Position numbers and translations under genes: made by a program | In this document: positions 9,635 through 62,801 of the stretch, in pieces | How positions within the stretch are numbered: position 1 is the stretch's first letter | Layout: the number at the start of each line of letters is the position of its first letter | The notes under the pieces: model-generated | Told to the model about the DNA's origin: nothing | Database searches by the model: none | The model's input: only the letters and a program-made list of their open reading frames with translations | NCBI GenBank assembly: GCA_017428055.1 | Contig: JAFRRN010000075.1 | Span: 55,501-119,500 of the forward strand | Direction: 5' to 3' | From: Prevotella sp. | Lineage (GTDB): Bacteria; Bacteroidota; Bacteroidia; Bacteroidales; Bacteroidaceae | DNA length: 64,000 nt

Positions 9635-9717
9635 ATACCAAAGCATGGTAGCCTCCCTACCACGCTTTGGTACGGGCAGTACCACAACGTGGTACTCCGC
9701 GTACCAAATACCAAGAA
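9635..9717. repeat. 22-bp-phased dyad array A
   Basis: Four 17-bp units with starts at 9635, 9657, 9679 and 9701, each followed by 5 bp: ATACCAAAGCATGGTAG, CTACCACGCTTTGGTAC, GTACCACAACGTGGTAC and the degenerate GTACCAAATACCAAGAA. The first three each have TACCA...TGGTA symmetry. Unit 2 is the reverse complement of unit 1 at 15 of 17 positions. The array begins 21 bp after the stop of the lipoprotein gene, between convergent genes, and could fold as a long hairpin in either transcript. Confidence 0.8.
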
Positions 9718-22072: not shown

Positions 22073-23317
22073 ATGGCTATCATTAAATGTCCAGAGTGCG
22101 GCCACCAAATAAGTGACAAAGCACCAACATGCCCCTCATGTGGAGTAGAAATCAAGGGGAAAATCATTAAGTGTCCCGTCTGCGGGGAGGTGTATCTCTA
22201 TGACCAGGAGATGTGTCCGAATTGCCATCACGCCAATTTCGCACCCATCCCCGTGGAGTCATCCAGCAGCTATGTGAGAGAAGAGCCCAATCCACGTCCC
22301 ATAGAAGACGAGGATATGGAGAGCGAGATTCCCTTTGAGGACGACGACGAGGCAACCTCTCCCTCCGAGGAGCGTCCCAAACAGCCGAAGCGCAAGAAGG
22401 AAACGACGAAAAAGAAGAAGAACTATTCGGCTTTAATCGTCGCCTTCGTCCTTGCCTTGATCATTTTGGCGGTGTCGGGGTATTTCTACAACAAAACCAA
22501 GACGGAGCAAGAAACCAATTCGTACGAGTATGCGATGAGCAGCAAGGAGCCCATGGTGCTGCAAAGCTACCTCGACCAGAACCCCGATGCCCCCAAGGCG
22601 CACCGCGACTCCATCCTTGCACGAATCAAGTTCCTACAAGAAATCGACAAAGACTGGACAGATGTCGTGGCAAGTGGGTCGAAAGCCGTGCTGCTCGACT
22701 ACTTGGAGAAAAACCCCAAGTCATCCCATCGCGACTTGGCATTCAAGATGATCGACTCCATCGACTGGGAGGTTGCCGCCAAGGAAAACACGGTCGAGGC
22801 ATACGACACCTACATGAAAGAGCATCCACAGGGCCAGCATTACGACGCTGCCGTTGACGCTTCCAAGCTCTTGCAGTCCAACACGTTGCTGCCAGGGGAG
22901 AAGGAAATGGTCAACAACATCATCCGTCGCTTCTTCCAGAGCATCAACGACAAGGACGAGAAGAAGATCCACAGCACGATGGGCAACAGCATGACCAACT
23001 TCCTCGGCAAGCCCAACCAGACCAGGGGCGACCTGTCAGCCTTCATCCAACGCCAATGGAAAGCCGACTTCGCAAAGGTCACATGGCACGTTCTGGGTGA
23101 TTACAAGATCAACAAGAAGCCGTCGGGCGACAACAAGTTCCTTTACGACGTGCAGGCGACAGCCACCAAAAGGATAGAGCGCAAGGACAAGAAAGCCGTT
23201 CCCGAAGCCAAATATCGCCTGAATGCCACCGTCAACTCTGACACGACCATCGTTGCACTCGACCTCACCAAGGTCGTCGAGGAGAAAAAAGTCGAGCAGC
23301 CAGCCAAGAAGAACTAA
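22073..23317 (+). CDS. Double zinc-ribbon membrane protein
   Basis: 414 residues. Two N-terminal zinc ribbons are plain: C6/C9 with C20/C23 and C34/C37 with C48/C51. A long acidic and then lysine-rich linker (about 60-117) leads to one membrane helix near 118-138. The extracytoplasmic part is helical (GQHYDAAVDASKLL region) and ends in a possible NTF2-like fold (FFQSINDKDEKKIHSTMG). The combination suggests a membrane-anchored scaffold or sensor; the role is unknown. It starts 17 bp after the GH25 gene and probably shares its promoter. Confidence 0.72.
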   Translation: MAIIKCPECGHQISDKAPTCPSCGVEIKGKIIKCPVCGEVYLYDQEMCPNCHHANFAPIPVESSSSYVREEPNPRPIEDEDMESEIPFEDDDEATSPSEERPKQPKRKKETTKKKKNYSALIVAFVLALIILAVSGYFYNKTKTEQETNSYEYAMSSKEPMVLQSYLDQNPDAPKAHRDSILARIKFLQEIDKDWTDVVASGSKAVLLDYLEKNPKSSHRDLAFKMIDSIDWEVAAKENTVEAYDTYMKEHPQGQHYDAAVDASKLLQSNTLLPGEKEMVNNIIRRFFQSINDKDEKKIHSTMGNSMTNFLGKPNQTRGDLSAFIQRQWKADFAKVTWHVLGDYKINKKPSGDNKFLYDVQATATKRIERKDKKAVPEAKYRLNATVNSDTTIVALDLTKVVEEKKVEQPAKKN

Positions 23318-23352: not shown

Positions 23353-23457
23353 TTACAAGCCGCACGTAAAAGGATTACATGCGGCTTGTAATGTGTTTAT
23401 AGGTATCATATAAAGAGATTATATGTATCATATAATGAGATTATATGTATCATATAA
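23353..23457. repeat. 22-bp-phased dyad array B
   Basis: Five 17-bp units with starts at 23353, 23375, 23397, 23419 and 23441: TTACAAGCCGCACGTAA, TTACATGCGGCTTGTAA, TTATAGGTATCATATAA, then TTATATGTATCATATAA twice. All fit TTA-N11-TAA with 5-bp gaps. Unit 2 is the reverse complement of unit 1 at 16 of 17 positions, and units 4-5 have perfect 7-bp arms. Read as direct repeats, the last 66 bp (23403-23468) are three 22-bp copies that run into the stop codon of the J-protein gene. The region separates convergent genes. Confidence 0.85.
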
Positions 23458-23464
23458 AGTGATT

Positions 23465-24142
23465 TCATGCCTCCCTCATCTCTCTCAACAGCGACTTCTG
23501 CCGCTCAGAAAGGTTAGTGGGAAGATTCACCTGGTAGGTGATAATCAAGTCTCCAAACGTGCCATTGCCCTTGTCGTAGCCTTTCCCACGAATACGCACC
23601 TTGGTACCGGGCTGCGTCTCGGGCTTGACTTTCAACCGCAACTTCGTGCCATTGCTCAATTGGACAATGACCTCCCCGCCGAGCATGGCGGTGTAAAGGT
23701 CAATGTTGATGGTAGCGTTCATCTCCCCTACTCCCTTTTGCGAAGATGCCTGACGCGACGACTGCCGACCACCCATGCTGCCAAACAAGTTCTCGAAGAA
23801 GCTGGAGAAAGAGCCTCCGCCCCTTATCGACGAGAAGTCAAAGCCCTCAAATGGCGACCCGCCGCCGCTGCCGCCCCAGTGGAAGCCGCCAAAGCCGGCA
23901 TCTTCTGCCTTCCCCGCCTCTTTCCACTGCTCACCATACTGGTCGTACTTTTTCCTTTTCTCCGGGTCGTTGATGACCTCGTACGCCTCGTTCAGTGCCT
24001 GGAATTTCGCCTTTGCCTTCGGGTCATTGGGATGCAAGTCGGGATGGAATTGCTTTGCCCGTTTCCGATAGGCTTCCCTGACATCCTTTTGGGGGATGTT
24101 CTTGTCAACCCCCAAGATCTTGTAATAATCAACAAATGCCAT
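23465..24142 (-). CDS. CbpA-like J-domain co-chaperone
   Basis: 225 residues. The J domain occupies about 3-70 with HPD at 33-35. A Gly/Phe-rich linker (FGGFHWGGSGGGSPFEGFDF) follows, then a single beta-sandwich client/HSP70-binding domain (ATINIDLYTAMLGGEVIVQL, GTKVRIRGKGYD, GDLIITYQVNLP). There is no cysteine-rich zinc domain, so it is a CbpA/DnaJ class B type, but short because one C-terminal repeat is missing or merged. It would stimulate DnaK ATPase. The full DnaJ is encoded separately at 43352. Its stop codon lies inside the last copy of the 22-bp repeats. Confidence 0.88.
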   Translation of the reverse strand: MAFVDYYKILGVDKNIPQKDVREAYRKRAKQFHPDLHPNDPKAKAKFQALNEAYEVINDPEKRKKYDQYGEQWKEAGKAEDAGFGGFHWGGSGGGSPFEGFDFSSIRGGGSFSSFFENLFGSMGGRQSSRQASSQKGVGEMNATINIDLYTAMLGGEVIVQLSNGTKLRLKVKPETQPGTKVRIRGKGYDKGNGTFGDLIITYQVNLPTNLSERQKSLLREMREA

Positions 24143-38379: not shown

Positions 38380-38445
38380 TTTTGGCTATAGCCGCACACC
38401 CTTTTGCCCAAGGCCGCACGGTCTTTTGGCTATAGCCGCACGGTT
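38380..38445. repeat. 22-bp direct repeats, block C1
   Basis: Three adjacent 22-bp copies with starts at 38380, 38402 and 38424. Copies 1 and 3 share TTTTGGCTATAGCCGCAC, containing the palindrome GGCTATAGCC; copy 2 reads TTTTGCCCAAGGCCGCAC. The last four bases of each copy vary. Confidence 0.8.
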
Positions 38446-38472
38446 GCGGATGTGGCATTTGTTCCCATCATC

Positions 38473-38532
38473 TGCCATGTTTAATCCCGGCAAATGCCAT
38501 GTTTAATCCCAACAGATGCCATATTTTGTCGT
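38473..38532. repeat. 22-bp direct repeats, block C2
   Basis: Copies start at 38473, 38495 and 38517. The first two share TGCCATGTTTAATCCC exactly; the third keeps TGCCAT and then diverges. The block is unlike C1 in sequence but has the same 22-bp period. A weak fourth copy may begin at 38451 (TGTGGCATTTGTTCCC). Confidence 0.7.
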
Positions 38533-49609: not shown

Positions 49610-49670
49610 TTACCGCTATGTGGTAAACCAACTACCACATAGCGGTTAATTGGTTATCATGGCATGGTGA
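49610..49670. repeat. 22-bp-phased dyad array E
   Basis: Three 17-bp units with starts at 49610, 49632 and 49654: TTACCGCTATGTGGTAA, CTACCACATAGCGGTTA and TTATCATGGCATGGTGA. Unit 2 is the reverse complement of unit 1 at 15 of 17 positions, giving a 14-bp perfect hairpin (49612-49625 with 49633-49646). Unit 1 also has internal TTACC...GGTAA symmetry. It may end the galactose operon transcript. Confidence 0.8.
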
Positions 49671-52866: not shown

Positions 52867-52927
52867 GTTCACAGTTCATCGTTGGTTGAACGATGAGCTG
52901 TGAGCTATGAACTATTAACTATCAACC
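52867..52927. repeat. 22-bp-phased array F with 23-bp hairpin
   Basis: Three 17-bp units at 52867, 52889 and 52911: GTTCACAGTTCATCGTT, AACGATGAGCTGTGAGC and AACTATTAACTATCAAC. Unit 2 is the reverse complement of unit 1 at 15 of 17, the two changes being G-U pairs in RNA; with flanking bases the stem is 23 bp (52861-52883 with 52889-52911, loop GGTTG). Unit 3 is a looser copy (13 of 17 to inverted unit 1). It lies between the symporter stop and the araR start. Confidence 0.7.
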
Positions 52928-53602
52928 ATGAACTATTATAGCGAACACTCTAAAGTCTGGGTTTCTGTTGACTGCATCGTCTTTGGTTTTGAGGAAGGCA
53001 AACTCAAGCTGCTCATCGGCAAGCGTCAAATGGACCCAGGTCGTGGGGAATGGTCACTATATGGAGGCTTTGTCCGTGATGACGAGAGCTTAAAGGATGC
53101 CGCAAACCGCGTCCTCTACGAACTCACGGGAATGAAAAAAGTATACATGAAACAAGTGGGTGCATTCGGGGCCATCGACCGCGACCCTGGTGAGCGCGTC
53201 ATCTCCGTGGCTTATTGTGCCTTGATCAACGTGACAGATTATGACGACCTGCTGCGCCAGCAACATGGTTTGGAATGGGTGAACATTGACGAGTTGCCAA
53301 AGCTATACTCCGACCACAACGAAATGGTACGCAAGGCCATCTCGCTTTTGCGCAGACGCATCAAGACGGAGCCATTGAGCTTCAACCTGTTGCCAAGCCT
53401 GTTTACGTTGACCCAATTGCAGAATGTCTATGAGGCAATCTTGGGAGATGAAATCGACAAGCGAAACTTCCGCAAGCGCATCAAGACATACGATTTCATT
53501 GAAAAAACCGAGCTGATCGACAAATACCACTCCAAGCGTGGTGCCGCACTCTACCGTTTCAATAAAAGGAATTACAACGAAGAATCATCATTCAAATTAT
53601 AA
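52928..53602 (+). CDS. araR: NUDIX-type arabinose regulator
   Basis: 224 residues. The N-terminal NUDIX fold (VSVDCIVFGFEEGKLKLLIGKR) carries a damaged box, GGFVRDDESLKDAANRVLYE then LTG, where the catalytic REUXEE glutamates are lost, as expected for a sensor rather than a hydrolase. A C-terminal winged-helix domain (FTLTQLQNVYEAILGDEIDKRNFRKRI) binds DNA. This architecture is that of the AraR repressor described for Bacteroides thetaiotaomicron, where L-arabinose releases it from DNA. araD starts 9 bp after the stop. Confidence 0.9.
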   Translation: MNYYSEHSKVWVSVDCIVFGFEEGKLKLLIGKRQMDPGRGEWSLYGGFVRDDESLKDAANRVLYELTGMKKVYMKQVGAFGAIDRDPGERVISVAYCALINVTDYDDLLRQQHGLEWVNIDELPKLYSDHNEMVRKAISLLRRRIKTEPLSFNLLPSLFTLTQLQNVYEAILGDEIDKRNFRKRIKTYDFIEKTELIDKYHSKRGAALYRFNKRNYNEESSFKL

Positions 53603-59278: not shown

Positions 59279-59305
59279 AATGCCTAAAGACATTTCTTTA
59301 TAGCA

Positions 59306-59437
59306 TAAGAATCATTCGTTTATATGGTACAGAACTATGGTTTACGTCATACAAATCAATGGTTTTTAGCACACGGAGCTATGGTTTGCATTGTACAGAG
59401 CATTGACATGTAGCATACAAACCAATGGTTTATACTC
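59306..59437. repeat. 22-bp-phased array D
   Basis: Six degenerate 22-bp units with starts at 59306, 59328, 59350, 59372, 59394 and 59416. The common core is AAACC-AAT-GGTTT, best in the last unit (TACAAACCAATGGTTTATA); unit 3 is TACAAATCAATGGTTTTTA. Units 2 and 4 resemble one another (AGAACTATGGTTT, GGAGCTATGGTTT). Four units have TA at both ends of a 19-bp block. Confidence 0.7.
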
Positions 59438-59664
59438 ACTAAAACAACAGTCAATCGTCTACGGCGAGAAATTGAACAAAATCCGTTTCTAAATCTCACA
59501 AAATCATTTTGAATCATTTTGTTCCCATTTTGTACTATTTCTGCACGAAGTGCATCTTTCATGTTGAATCTTTCATCTTTTTGCCCTTGTCGTGAAACGA
59601 AAATCGGAAAGGAGGAATGTAGACATTAGAGTTTTCGTAACACAGAGAACGAGGCACTTTAGTA

Positions 59665-62629: not shown

Positions 62630-62647
62630 AAAAAAGTTTTGATGTTA

Positions 62648-62727
62648 GGAGTTAAGGAGTTTGGGAGTTTGGGAGTTTGGGAGTTTAGGAGTTTGGGAAT
62701 TTAGGAGTTTGGGAATTTAGGAGTTTA
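62648..62727. repeat. 8-bp tandem array, ten units
   Basis: Ten units of eight bases (GGAGTTTG or GGAGTTTA, with GGAATTTA and GGAGTTAA variants) run without break from 62648. After a 33-bp spacer, TAAACTCT at 62761 and TAAACTCC at 62777 are inverted copies in 8-bp register, so RNA from the region can fold back. It lies between the GH130 and symporter genes of one operon. Confidence 0.85.
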
Positions 62728-62801
62728 GACATTAGCTTTGTCTGTTTGATGACTATTGTTTAAACTCTCAGGCTTCTAAACTCCTAAGTTCCTTGACTTT
62801 T

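Follow-up and report, generated by a model that had tools for sequence, protein, structure and literature searches.

Between two convergent gene ends in a Prevotella genome, five similar dyads follow each other in exact steps of 22 bp. What keeps such a row in step, and why does the same spacing return, often in other letters, behind other genes? We addressed this question in the window, by which we mean the whole analysed stretch of 64,000 nucleotides (G000:C65:55501-119500, from a 4.2-Mb draft genome), in further stretches of the same genome and in its relatives. A sequence-only reading of the window had reported the pattern at six loci and offered three mechanisms for it: a lattice of a DNA-binding protein, a 3'-end processing or termination element, and a repeat-generating process. 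The features needed for the argument are these:

9635..9717, no strand assigned: array A, TACC-type dyads at 22-bp spacing; units 1 and 2 are reverse complements at 15/17 positions
23353..23457, no strand assigned: array B, five 17-bp dyads of the type TTAYATG-N3-CATRTAA with 5-bp linkers, read directly and by TRF
38380..38532, no strand assigned: array C, 22-bp direct repeats, first of the GGCTATAGCC dialect and directly after them of TGCCATGTTTAATCCC
49610..49670, no strand assigned: array E, three 17-bp dyads, 53 bp past the stop of an MFS transporter gene
52867..52936, no strand assigned: array F, 7-bp repeat TGAACTA, 7 copies by TRF, outside the 22-bp class
59285..59437, no strand assigned: the 59306 array, seven 22-bp units of the ACAAACC-N3-GGTTTAT dialect, unit 1 weak
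59443..59580, plus strand: dispersed repeat rich in AAAATCATTTTG, adjoining the 59306 array and not phase-locked; internal control for indels

Architecture of the arrays in the window

The units of array B start at 23353, 23375, 23397, 23419 and 23441, with 5 bp between them. Direct reading bears out the description of this array as 17-bp units with 5-bp gaps, and TRF on its own reports period 22 with 91% matches. It lies between the ends of a zinc-ribbon gene on the plus strand (stop at 23317) and of dnaJ on the minus strand (ending at 23465), and 10 further loci of its own genome are related to it in sequence at E<=0.02. At only 225 aa, the product of this dnaJ (23468-24142) is a short form, CbpA-like in our view; Pfam finds in it the J domain and a portion of the C-terminal domain.

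Arrays A, B and E are rows of dyads, as had been proposed, and these dyads have the form 7-3-7. The near reverse complementarity of the first two units was also found as described, at 15 of 17 positions in A, 16 in B, 15 in E and 15 in F, and so were the distances from the preceding stop codon: 21 bp for A, 35 for B, 53 for E, 13 for F and 27 for the 59306 array. Array C lies, by its coordinates, about 105 bp beyond the M14 stop, also as described. Its dyads are weak (p=0.13 and 0.21), and the 59306 array is a 22-bp direct repeat with weak dyads as well (mean 3.5 of 7 pairs). Five of the six loci belong to the common pattern; F is better described as a 7-bp TGAACTA repeat and was therefore dropped from the 22-bp class.

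Some other repeats were also seen. F (52867-52936) follows a stop codon, and other heptamers, AGAAGCA, stand near dnaJ in two loci of relatives (L053 and L159). Positions 62645-62728 of the window hold an 8/16-bp tandem repeat, TTAGGAGT, in 10.5 copies. The AAAATCATTTTG-rich repeat (59443-59580) has 34 more matches listed in its own genome and many in G315; it is joined to the 59306 array in the window and elsewhere is mostly matched without an array. Rfam, at gathering thresholds, gave no match within the window.

A 22-bp period across the genome

The own-genome sample consisted of the window and 40 stretches, 787 kb in all with 70 kb of intergenic DNA, genes being called by a simple longest-ORF rule. 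At an autocorrelation threshold of 25/34 matches, lag 22 gave 20 intergenic loci, a count in which array C and the L136 array are each entered twice and which includes L132, an A-rich repeat that we judged to lie outside the class. Lags 19, 20, 23 and 25 gave none and lag 21 gave 3; the maximum elsewhere between lags 8 and 59 was 6 (lag 9). A genome-wide scan for 22-bp autocorrelation had been suggested as a check of the pattern, and the excess is there: none of 40 dinucleotide shuffles of the intergenic DNA produced a lag-22 locus. Rows of three consecutive 7-3-7 dyads gave a similar picture in this genome, with 18 at period 22 against 0-6 at each other period between 17 and 30; in the loci from the genus there were 12 at period 22, yet also 8 at 18 and 8 at 21. 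The 22-bp array pattern is confirmed as real and genome-wide. By extrapolation from 20 loci per 787 kb, the whole genome would hold of the order of 100 arrays.

Conservation within the unit

A typical unit is a 17-bp 7-3-7 dyad followed by a 5-bp linker; the unit-register profile was drawn from 24 hand-chosen arrays. When arrays were collected by lag 22, blind to dyads, column shuffling marked 17/23 in the own genome and 11/22 in the genus loci as dyadic (p<=0.05), the latter figure still including near-copies. Among arrays at control lags the same held for 1/9 in the own genome and 8/34 in relatives, and because of these 8 the dyad control for the relatives is not clean.

The half-sites are the conserved part. 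With the axis set from the dyad alone, neighbouring units were most alike in their halves: in 22 arrays of the own genome the identity there was 0.77, against 0.65 for the centre and 0.48 for the linker, and in 17 arrays of other species it was 0.78 against 0.62 and 0.54. None of 3000 random-axis trials reached this contrast of halves against the rest in either set (p=0.0003). The own set comprises 22 of the 23 lag-22 arrays (A-rich L132 out), and the other set 14 of the 22 genus arrays together with three of the four lag-22 arrays of the complete genome G016 (L329 out). The eight genus arrays removed are L053, L159, the two of L151, the second row each of L069 and of L077, and two duplicates: L156 repeats L044, and L082 nearly repeats L077. 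The one array of G061 did not enter the set either. Both lag-22 rows of L151 are GGAGTTAAA repeats. These and the repeats of F, L053 and L159 were considered and set aside as other periodic repeats, not of the 22-bp class.

Several sequence dialects coexist in the own genome with a common geometry, and units of different dialects share one register in L029:15020-15172, in L136:645-815 and, by eye, in L021:7796-7965. Most dialects have neither fixed ends nor a fixed unit number. The GGCTATAGCC dialect has an even 10-bp palindrome and fits the 7-3-7 scheme poorly, with about 3.7 of 7 pairs.

Position relative to genes

Placement was analysed in 23 arrays with a score of at least 7.6, leaving out L132 and the TTTAAC elements described below, and with dnaJ in place of a spurious antisense ORF. 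Sixteen arrays lie in co-directional gaps, 4 in convergent gaps and 1 in a divergent gap, and 2 are at stretch ends. In co-directional gaps, 13/16 are nearer to the stop codon (one-sided binomial p ~0.01, hand calculation; median 43.5 bp). One of the 21 placed arrays lies in a divergent gap; among gaps of at least 100 bp, 45 of 169 are divergent. The claim that arrays are placed non-randomly relative to gene ends is borne out by the 13/16, in what is a small sample, and the preference for gene 3' ends is supported. The TTTAAC family has no such preference, being nearer the stop in 1/4 co-directional cases.

Terminator-like sites were found at 2/20 array ends and 22/127 other ends, with no clear difference. 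Loss of intrinsic terminators at array ends was considered and set aside, there being no clear difference and the E and B loci, with hairpins in the sisters, being two anecdotes.

Turnover of the arrays

Among 80 loci compared by DnaJ, the nearest named relatives are the rumen-type Prevotella MAGs RGIG7572 (G315, 93%) and RUG036 (G316, 84%), to which we refer as sisters. The dialect of the 59306 array is scattered through its own genome and occurs in both of them.

Matches to this array keep their length. Among matches of at least 40 bp a net indel was present in 1/23 for the array part and in 34/54 for the neighbouring AAAATCATTTTG-rich repeat (Fisher p=8e-7). At a minimum of 20 bp the figures were 3/29 and 35/64, making up all 93 rows, that is, all matches listed for the 59306 region minus the self match and two matches spanning both parts. 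In a smaller set, drawn from part of the rows, the array matches are more diverged than those of the neighbouring repeat (76% vs 82%).

The arrays themselves come and go between sisters. Array B is missing from G315 and G316, whose dnaJ ends differ, that of G316 having a 22-bp array of another dialect. At the same locus some 300 bp of G315 (L225) contain a long but imperfect dyad, CACGAAATGCGCC ... GGCGCATTTCGT; they may be a further dispersed element, which replaced array B or was replaced by it. Array E is missing from both sisters and, by eye, a hairpin followed by a T-run stands in its place. In G315 the AbgT gene of the A locus stands next to an array of the GGCTATAGCC dialect, the opposite neighbour being unmatched. 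The array at L027:12632 is missing in both sisters: the flanking matches are 204 bp apart here and 9 bp apart in G315, and in the comparison with G316 the two distances are 247 and 48 bp. The array at L029:15020 is common to the own genome and G315. At L029:7388 there are five units in G316 and three here; the right flank is 91% identical and the left flank is not shared, and the array therefore stands at a break in gene order. Around it (L029:7309-7390) the order breaks at the left edge of the array, the left gene lying on C13 of G316 and the array with its right flank on C22. In G316, GGGAGGTCTTA repeats occur near 22-bp arrays (L231, L235).

At the loci examined, arrays thus change by presence, dialect or whole units, plus base changes. 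A comparison of copy number at orthologous loci had been proposed, and where copy number changes it does so in 22-bp steps, as in the five against three units just mentioned and in elements 22 bp shorter than their relatives.

A family of fixed length

One dialect, the TTTAAC...GTTAAA family, is bounded by TTTAACATT...AATGTTAAA; the end pattern occurs 58 times in the own genome and its reversed control 0 times. The paired copies comprise 37 distinct sequences. In 34 of them the ends stand at a common distance, two fall short of it by exactly 22 bp, and one, whose partner end is poor, is odd; 4 further distinct ends have no partner. These counts refer to distinct sequences, L305 being identical to another and adding a place. 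After removal of five elements more than 90% identical to another, the 34 of common spacing leave 29 non-redundant elements, which have a mean interior identity of 0.57 and no net length difference. Their half-site reads RYRRATG: over 174 half-sites, position 1 is a purine in 94%, position 2 a pyrimidine in 98%, and positions 3 and 4 are purines in 95% and 99%. Across the 29 elements the arms of the dyads showed no significant covariation (p=0.17 and 0.10), nor did the halves on either side of the linker (p 0.55 to 0.70). Mismatches of the G.U kind number 57 and of the A.C kind 41.

Inverted ends at a fixed distance, as in MITEs, were seen in this family and in no other dialect. By eye, no target-site duplication is visible in the flanks, and the flank on one side often continues the 22-bp lattice. 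No autonomous element with TTTAAC ends was seen in the short loci around the 58 end matches. The exact TTTAACATTTTTTGGG occurs 45 times in the own genome and once each in 3/397 other genomes of the genus; for its reversed control the figure is 2 of these 397, again once each. Sister G315 carries close relatives of the element, and the dialect is confined to the own species and this sister. Two TTTAAC ends (L269 and L278, on G000:C16 and C32, near contig ends) run into a common sequence with the inverted repeat GAGGGTGTGTCAAAATAGGCACATCCTC; this may be an IS or MITE whose insertion into TTTAAC elements breaks the assembly.

Occurrence in related genomes

The 80 dnaJ loci from named Prevotella-group records (511 kb) gave 11 loci at lag 22, 7 at lag 21, 5 at lag 14 and 2 at lag 23, some of the loci, L053 among them, being 7-bp repeats. 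Lag 22 gave 4 loci in 200 kb of the complete genome G016 and one in the same length of G061; stretches of ten genomes that belong to other families of the order yielded 1 in 613 kb. A clear array is also present in a cultured relative, Segatella maculosa DSM 19339 (L075:4016-4213). The arrays belong to the genus in a wide sense, unevenly by species, and are rare outside it in our sample.

Units of other species are mostly unrelated in sequence, for example AGAAACA-CTT-TGTTTCT (L081) and TTGAAGC-ACT-GCTTTGA (L166), and for the sequence of array B a single weak match was obtained in 39 relatives. Some dialects are shared, however: those of the 59306 array and of GGCTATAGCC are also present in sister species. 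That relatives keep the spacing, often with different letters, suggests that the spacing is the preserved trait.

Comparison with described repeats

Porphyromonas gingivalis and Prevotella belong to the same phylum. The BrickBuilt MITE minisatellite of P. gingivalis resembles the arrays in its dispersed tandem units of about two helical turns, and is described as one family of 19 copies with 23-nt units without spacers, a leader and a tail, and small inverted ends (PMC4596501). Here the period is 22, lag 23 gave 0 loci in the own genome, spacers are present and there are several dialects, so that BrickBuilt was rejected as an identification.

REP families are marked by a GTAG or CGTC tag and by a single family sequence, and we know of no 22-bp lattice in them. 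REP and BIME elements with their RAYT, as described, share with the arrays short intergenic palindromes of alternating orientation, both dispersed and clustered (PMC2817692, PMC3733652). The scarcity in divergent gaps that goes with REP/BIME is seen here too (1/21 vs 45/169). One palindromic sequence in many copies would be expected of REP/BIME and several dialects were found, and a RAYT source was also rejected: the draft genome has one Y1_Tnp gene (PF01797), and by eye the repeats adjoining it look unrelated. This single Y1 (RAYT-like) gene, at L242:1-360, 835-1150 (G000:C28), has REP-like GATGCCGTAGGCATC repeats in a long tandem on its left, which are a separate REP system. Because defining features fail, the arrays are not plain REP/BIME or BrickBuilt elements; those of a MITE are found in part, in one dialect.

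The geometry recalls that of BvgA~P at Bordetella promoters, where dimers are described on inverted heptads 22 bp apart on centre and on the same face, and where weak sites, several of them of weak predicted affinity, can suffice (PMC7250471). The arrays share the inverted heptad half-sites with centres 22 bp, or two helical turns, apart, a likeness that is weak in the GGCTATAGCC dialect. Unlike the promoter elements of one regulator, however, they are dispersed and near gene ends, and they have 3 bp between halves where the primary BvgA~P site is printed as 14 bp, two adjoining heptads (PMC7250471). Plasmid iterons also form rows of 17-22 bp binding sites, whose cooperativity is reported to be abolished when two sites are separated by half a helical turn; as described, they are directly repeated sites at plasmid origins to which Rep binds as a monomer, whereas the arrays are dyads at many chromosomal loci (PMC4980987). 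With most units dyadic, many gene ends occupied and no replication initiator among ten neighbour proteins of A, B, C and E (Pfam), we rejected the iteron as a model. The TAACTGA heptamer direct repeats described in Beggiatoaceae and some Bacteroidetes resemble F and the AGAAGCA repeats (L053, L159) and, with period 7, are a class apart from the 22-bp arrays (PMC4679880). A phage origin was set aside as well, the exact patterns of the B dialect and a GTCCAAG dialect having 0 matches in IMG/VR.

Among the top-ranked results of a search of the openly licensed PubMed Central literature, we found no described family of 22-bp dyad arrays, in Prevotella or elsewhere, in agreement with the first impression that none fits. 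We place the arrays among the interspersed palindromic repeats, though they may be a geometry-defined kind of their own.

Discussion

The arrays show a fixed geometry, which recurs in other species with unrelated sequences, phase-locking, conserved half-sites, dispersal and a preference for gene 3' ends. We give a probability of about 0.5 to the reading that they are dispersed MITE- or REP-like repeats selected for the docking of predicted protein dimers, placed every two helical turns on one face of the DNA. Rows of docked dimers are proposed because the half-sites are conserved, the centre and linker are freer and the spacing is two helical turns. Against this reading count the unclean dyad control in the relatives and the poor fit of the GGCTATAGCC dialect; conserved half-sites would also fit the stems of DNA hairpins. 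Each site would consist of a 7-bp half-site, 3 free bases and an inverted half-site, with 5 free bases before the next site, and the 22-bp repeat would bring equivalent half-sites to a common side of the helix. A dimeric protein of helix-turn-helix type, or a set of paralogues with one per dialect, would bind cooperatively, one dimer per 22 bp; one protein could hardly read so many dialects, and we therefore assume several paralogues or an unusual mode of recognition. At gene ends the short nucleoprotein row could then keep transcription units apart, perhaps as a road-block or an insulator, which we regard, with low confidence, as its most likely use. Copies would spread and turn over as MITEs or REPs do, selection retaining those with an intact phase.

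The main rival to these dimer rows is that the arrays are non-autonomous mobile repeats, MITE or REPIN-like, whose dyads are binding sites of a transposase; the geometry would then be that of the transposase complex, and the elements would have no role for the host. We hold this to be unlikely, though it draws on dispersed families, on 37 distinct fixed-length TTTAAC...GTTAAA sequences here against one end match each in 3/397 other genomes of the genus, and on the empty sites for L027:12632 in G315 and G316. However, no target-site duplication was seen by eye and the lattice often runs on into one flank, no autonomous element with TTTAAC ends was seen in the short loci around the 58 end matches, the lone Y1 transposase adjoins other repeats, and most dialects are without fixed ends or unit number. 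Neutral minisatellites made by replication slippage, with 22 bp as a favoured slippage length, would explain the five units in G316 against three here beside a 91%-identical right flank, the left being unshared. Yet slippage alone leaves unexplained why half-sites are spared as centre and linker diverge, why one register runs across dialects and why one length is kept across diverged copies, and no other period is similarly enriched; we consider it very improbable as the whole explanation. The repeat-generating mechanism of the sequence-only reading is thus upheld as far as the 22-bp steps are real, and fails on half-site conservation.

An RNA function is also improbable, in our opinion. Strings of 3'-UTR hairpins blocking exonucleases or terminating transcription, like some REP sequences, would agree with the dyads, with inverted unit pairs that could fold into 17-bp stems and with the position after stop codons; array E, moreover, stands where both sisters have, by eye, a hairpin and T-run. 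But on the strand that is probably transcribed, G.U mismatches (20) are about as frequent as A.C mismatches (17), in the TTTAAC family they number 57 and 41, and arm covariation there is not significant (p=0.17, 0.10; 29 elements). As no covariation was detected and G.T is not clearly more frequent than A.C, RNA hairpins are unlikely. Nothing evident in RNA calls for an exact 22-bp period, Rfam is empty in the window and terminator-like sites are not enriched at array ends. The 3'-end or termination mechanism offered for the window keeps its preference for stops (13/16), but we saw no sign of a general rule by which arrays contain terminators or stand in for them. Of the three mechanisms offered, the protein lattice is thus the best supported, by the half-sites, the phase and the lack of detected covariation.

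It is tempting to go one step further, and we do so tentatively, in proposing a class of elements defined by geometry, in which many 7-bp words serve as inverted pairs 10 bp apart, every 22 bp. If true, a nucleoprotein structure would exist at gene ends throughout the genus, formed by dimers that are paralogous or read sequence weakly, on sites that diversify into lineage-specific dialects with their phase kept. Phase-locking with little sequence conservation is the trace expected of protein occupancy, here in mostly uncultured gut bacteria. Repeats are usually catalogued by sequence, so that a class held together by spacing would be missed by ordinary repeat searches. Should the rows insulate gene ends, bacteria would have in them a boundary element; should they be landing strips of a transposase, an undescribed mobile family would come to light, one that alters its recognition sequence between lineages.
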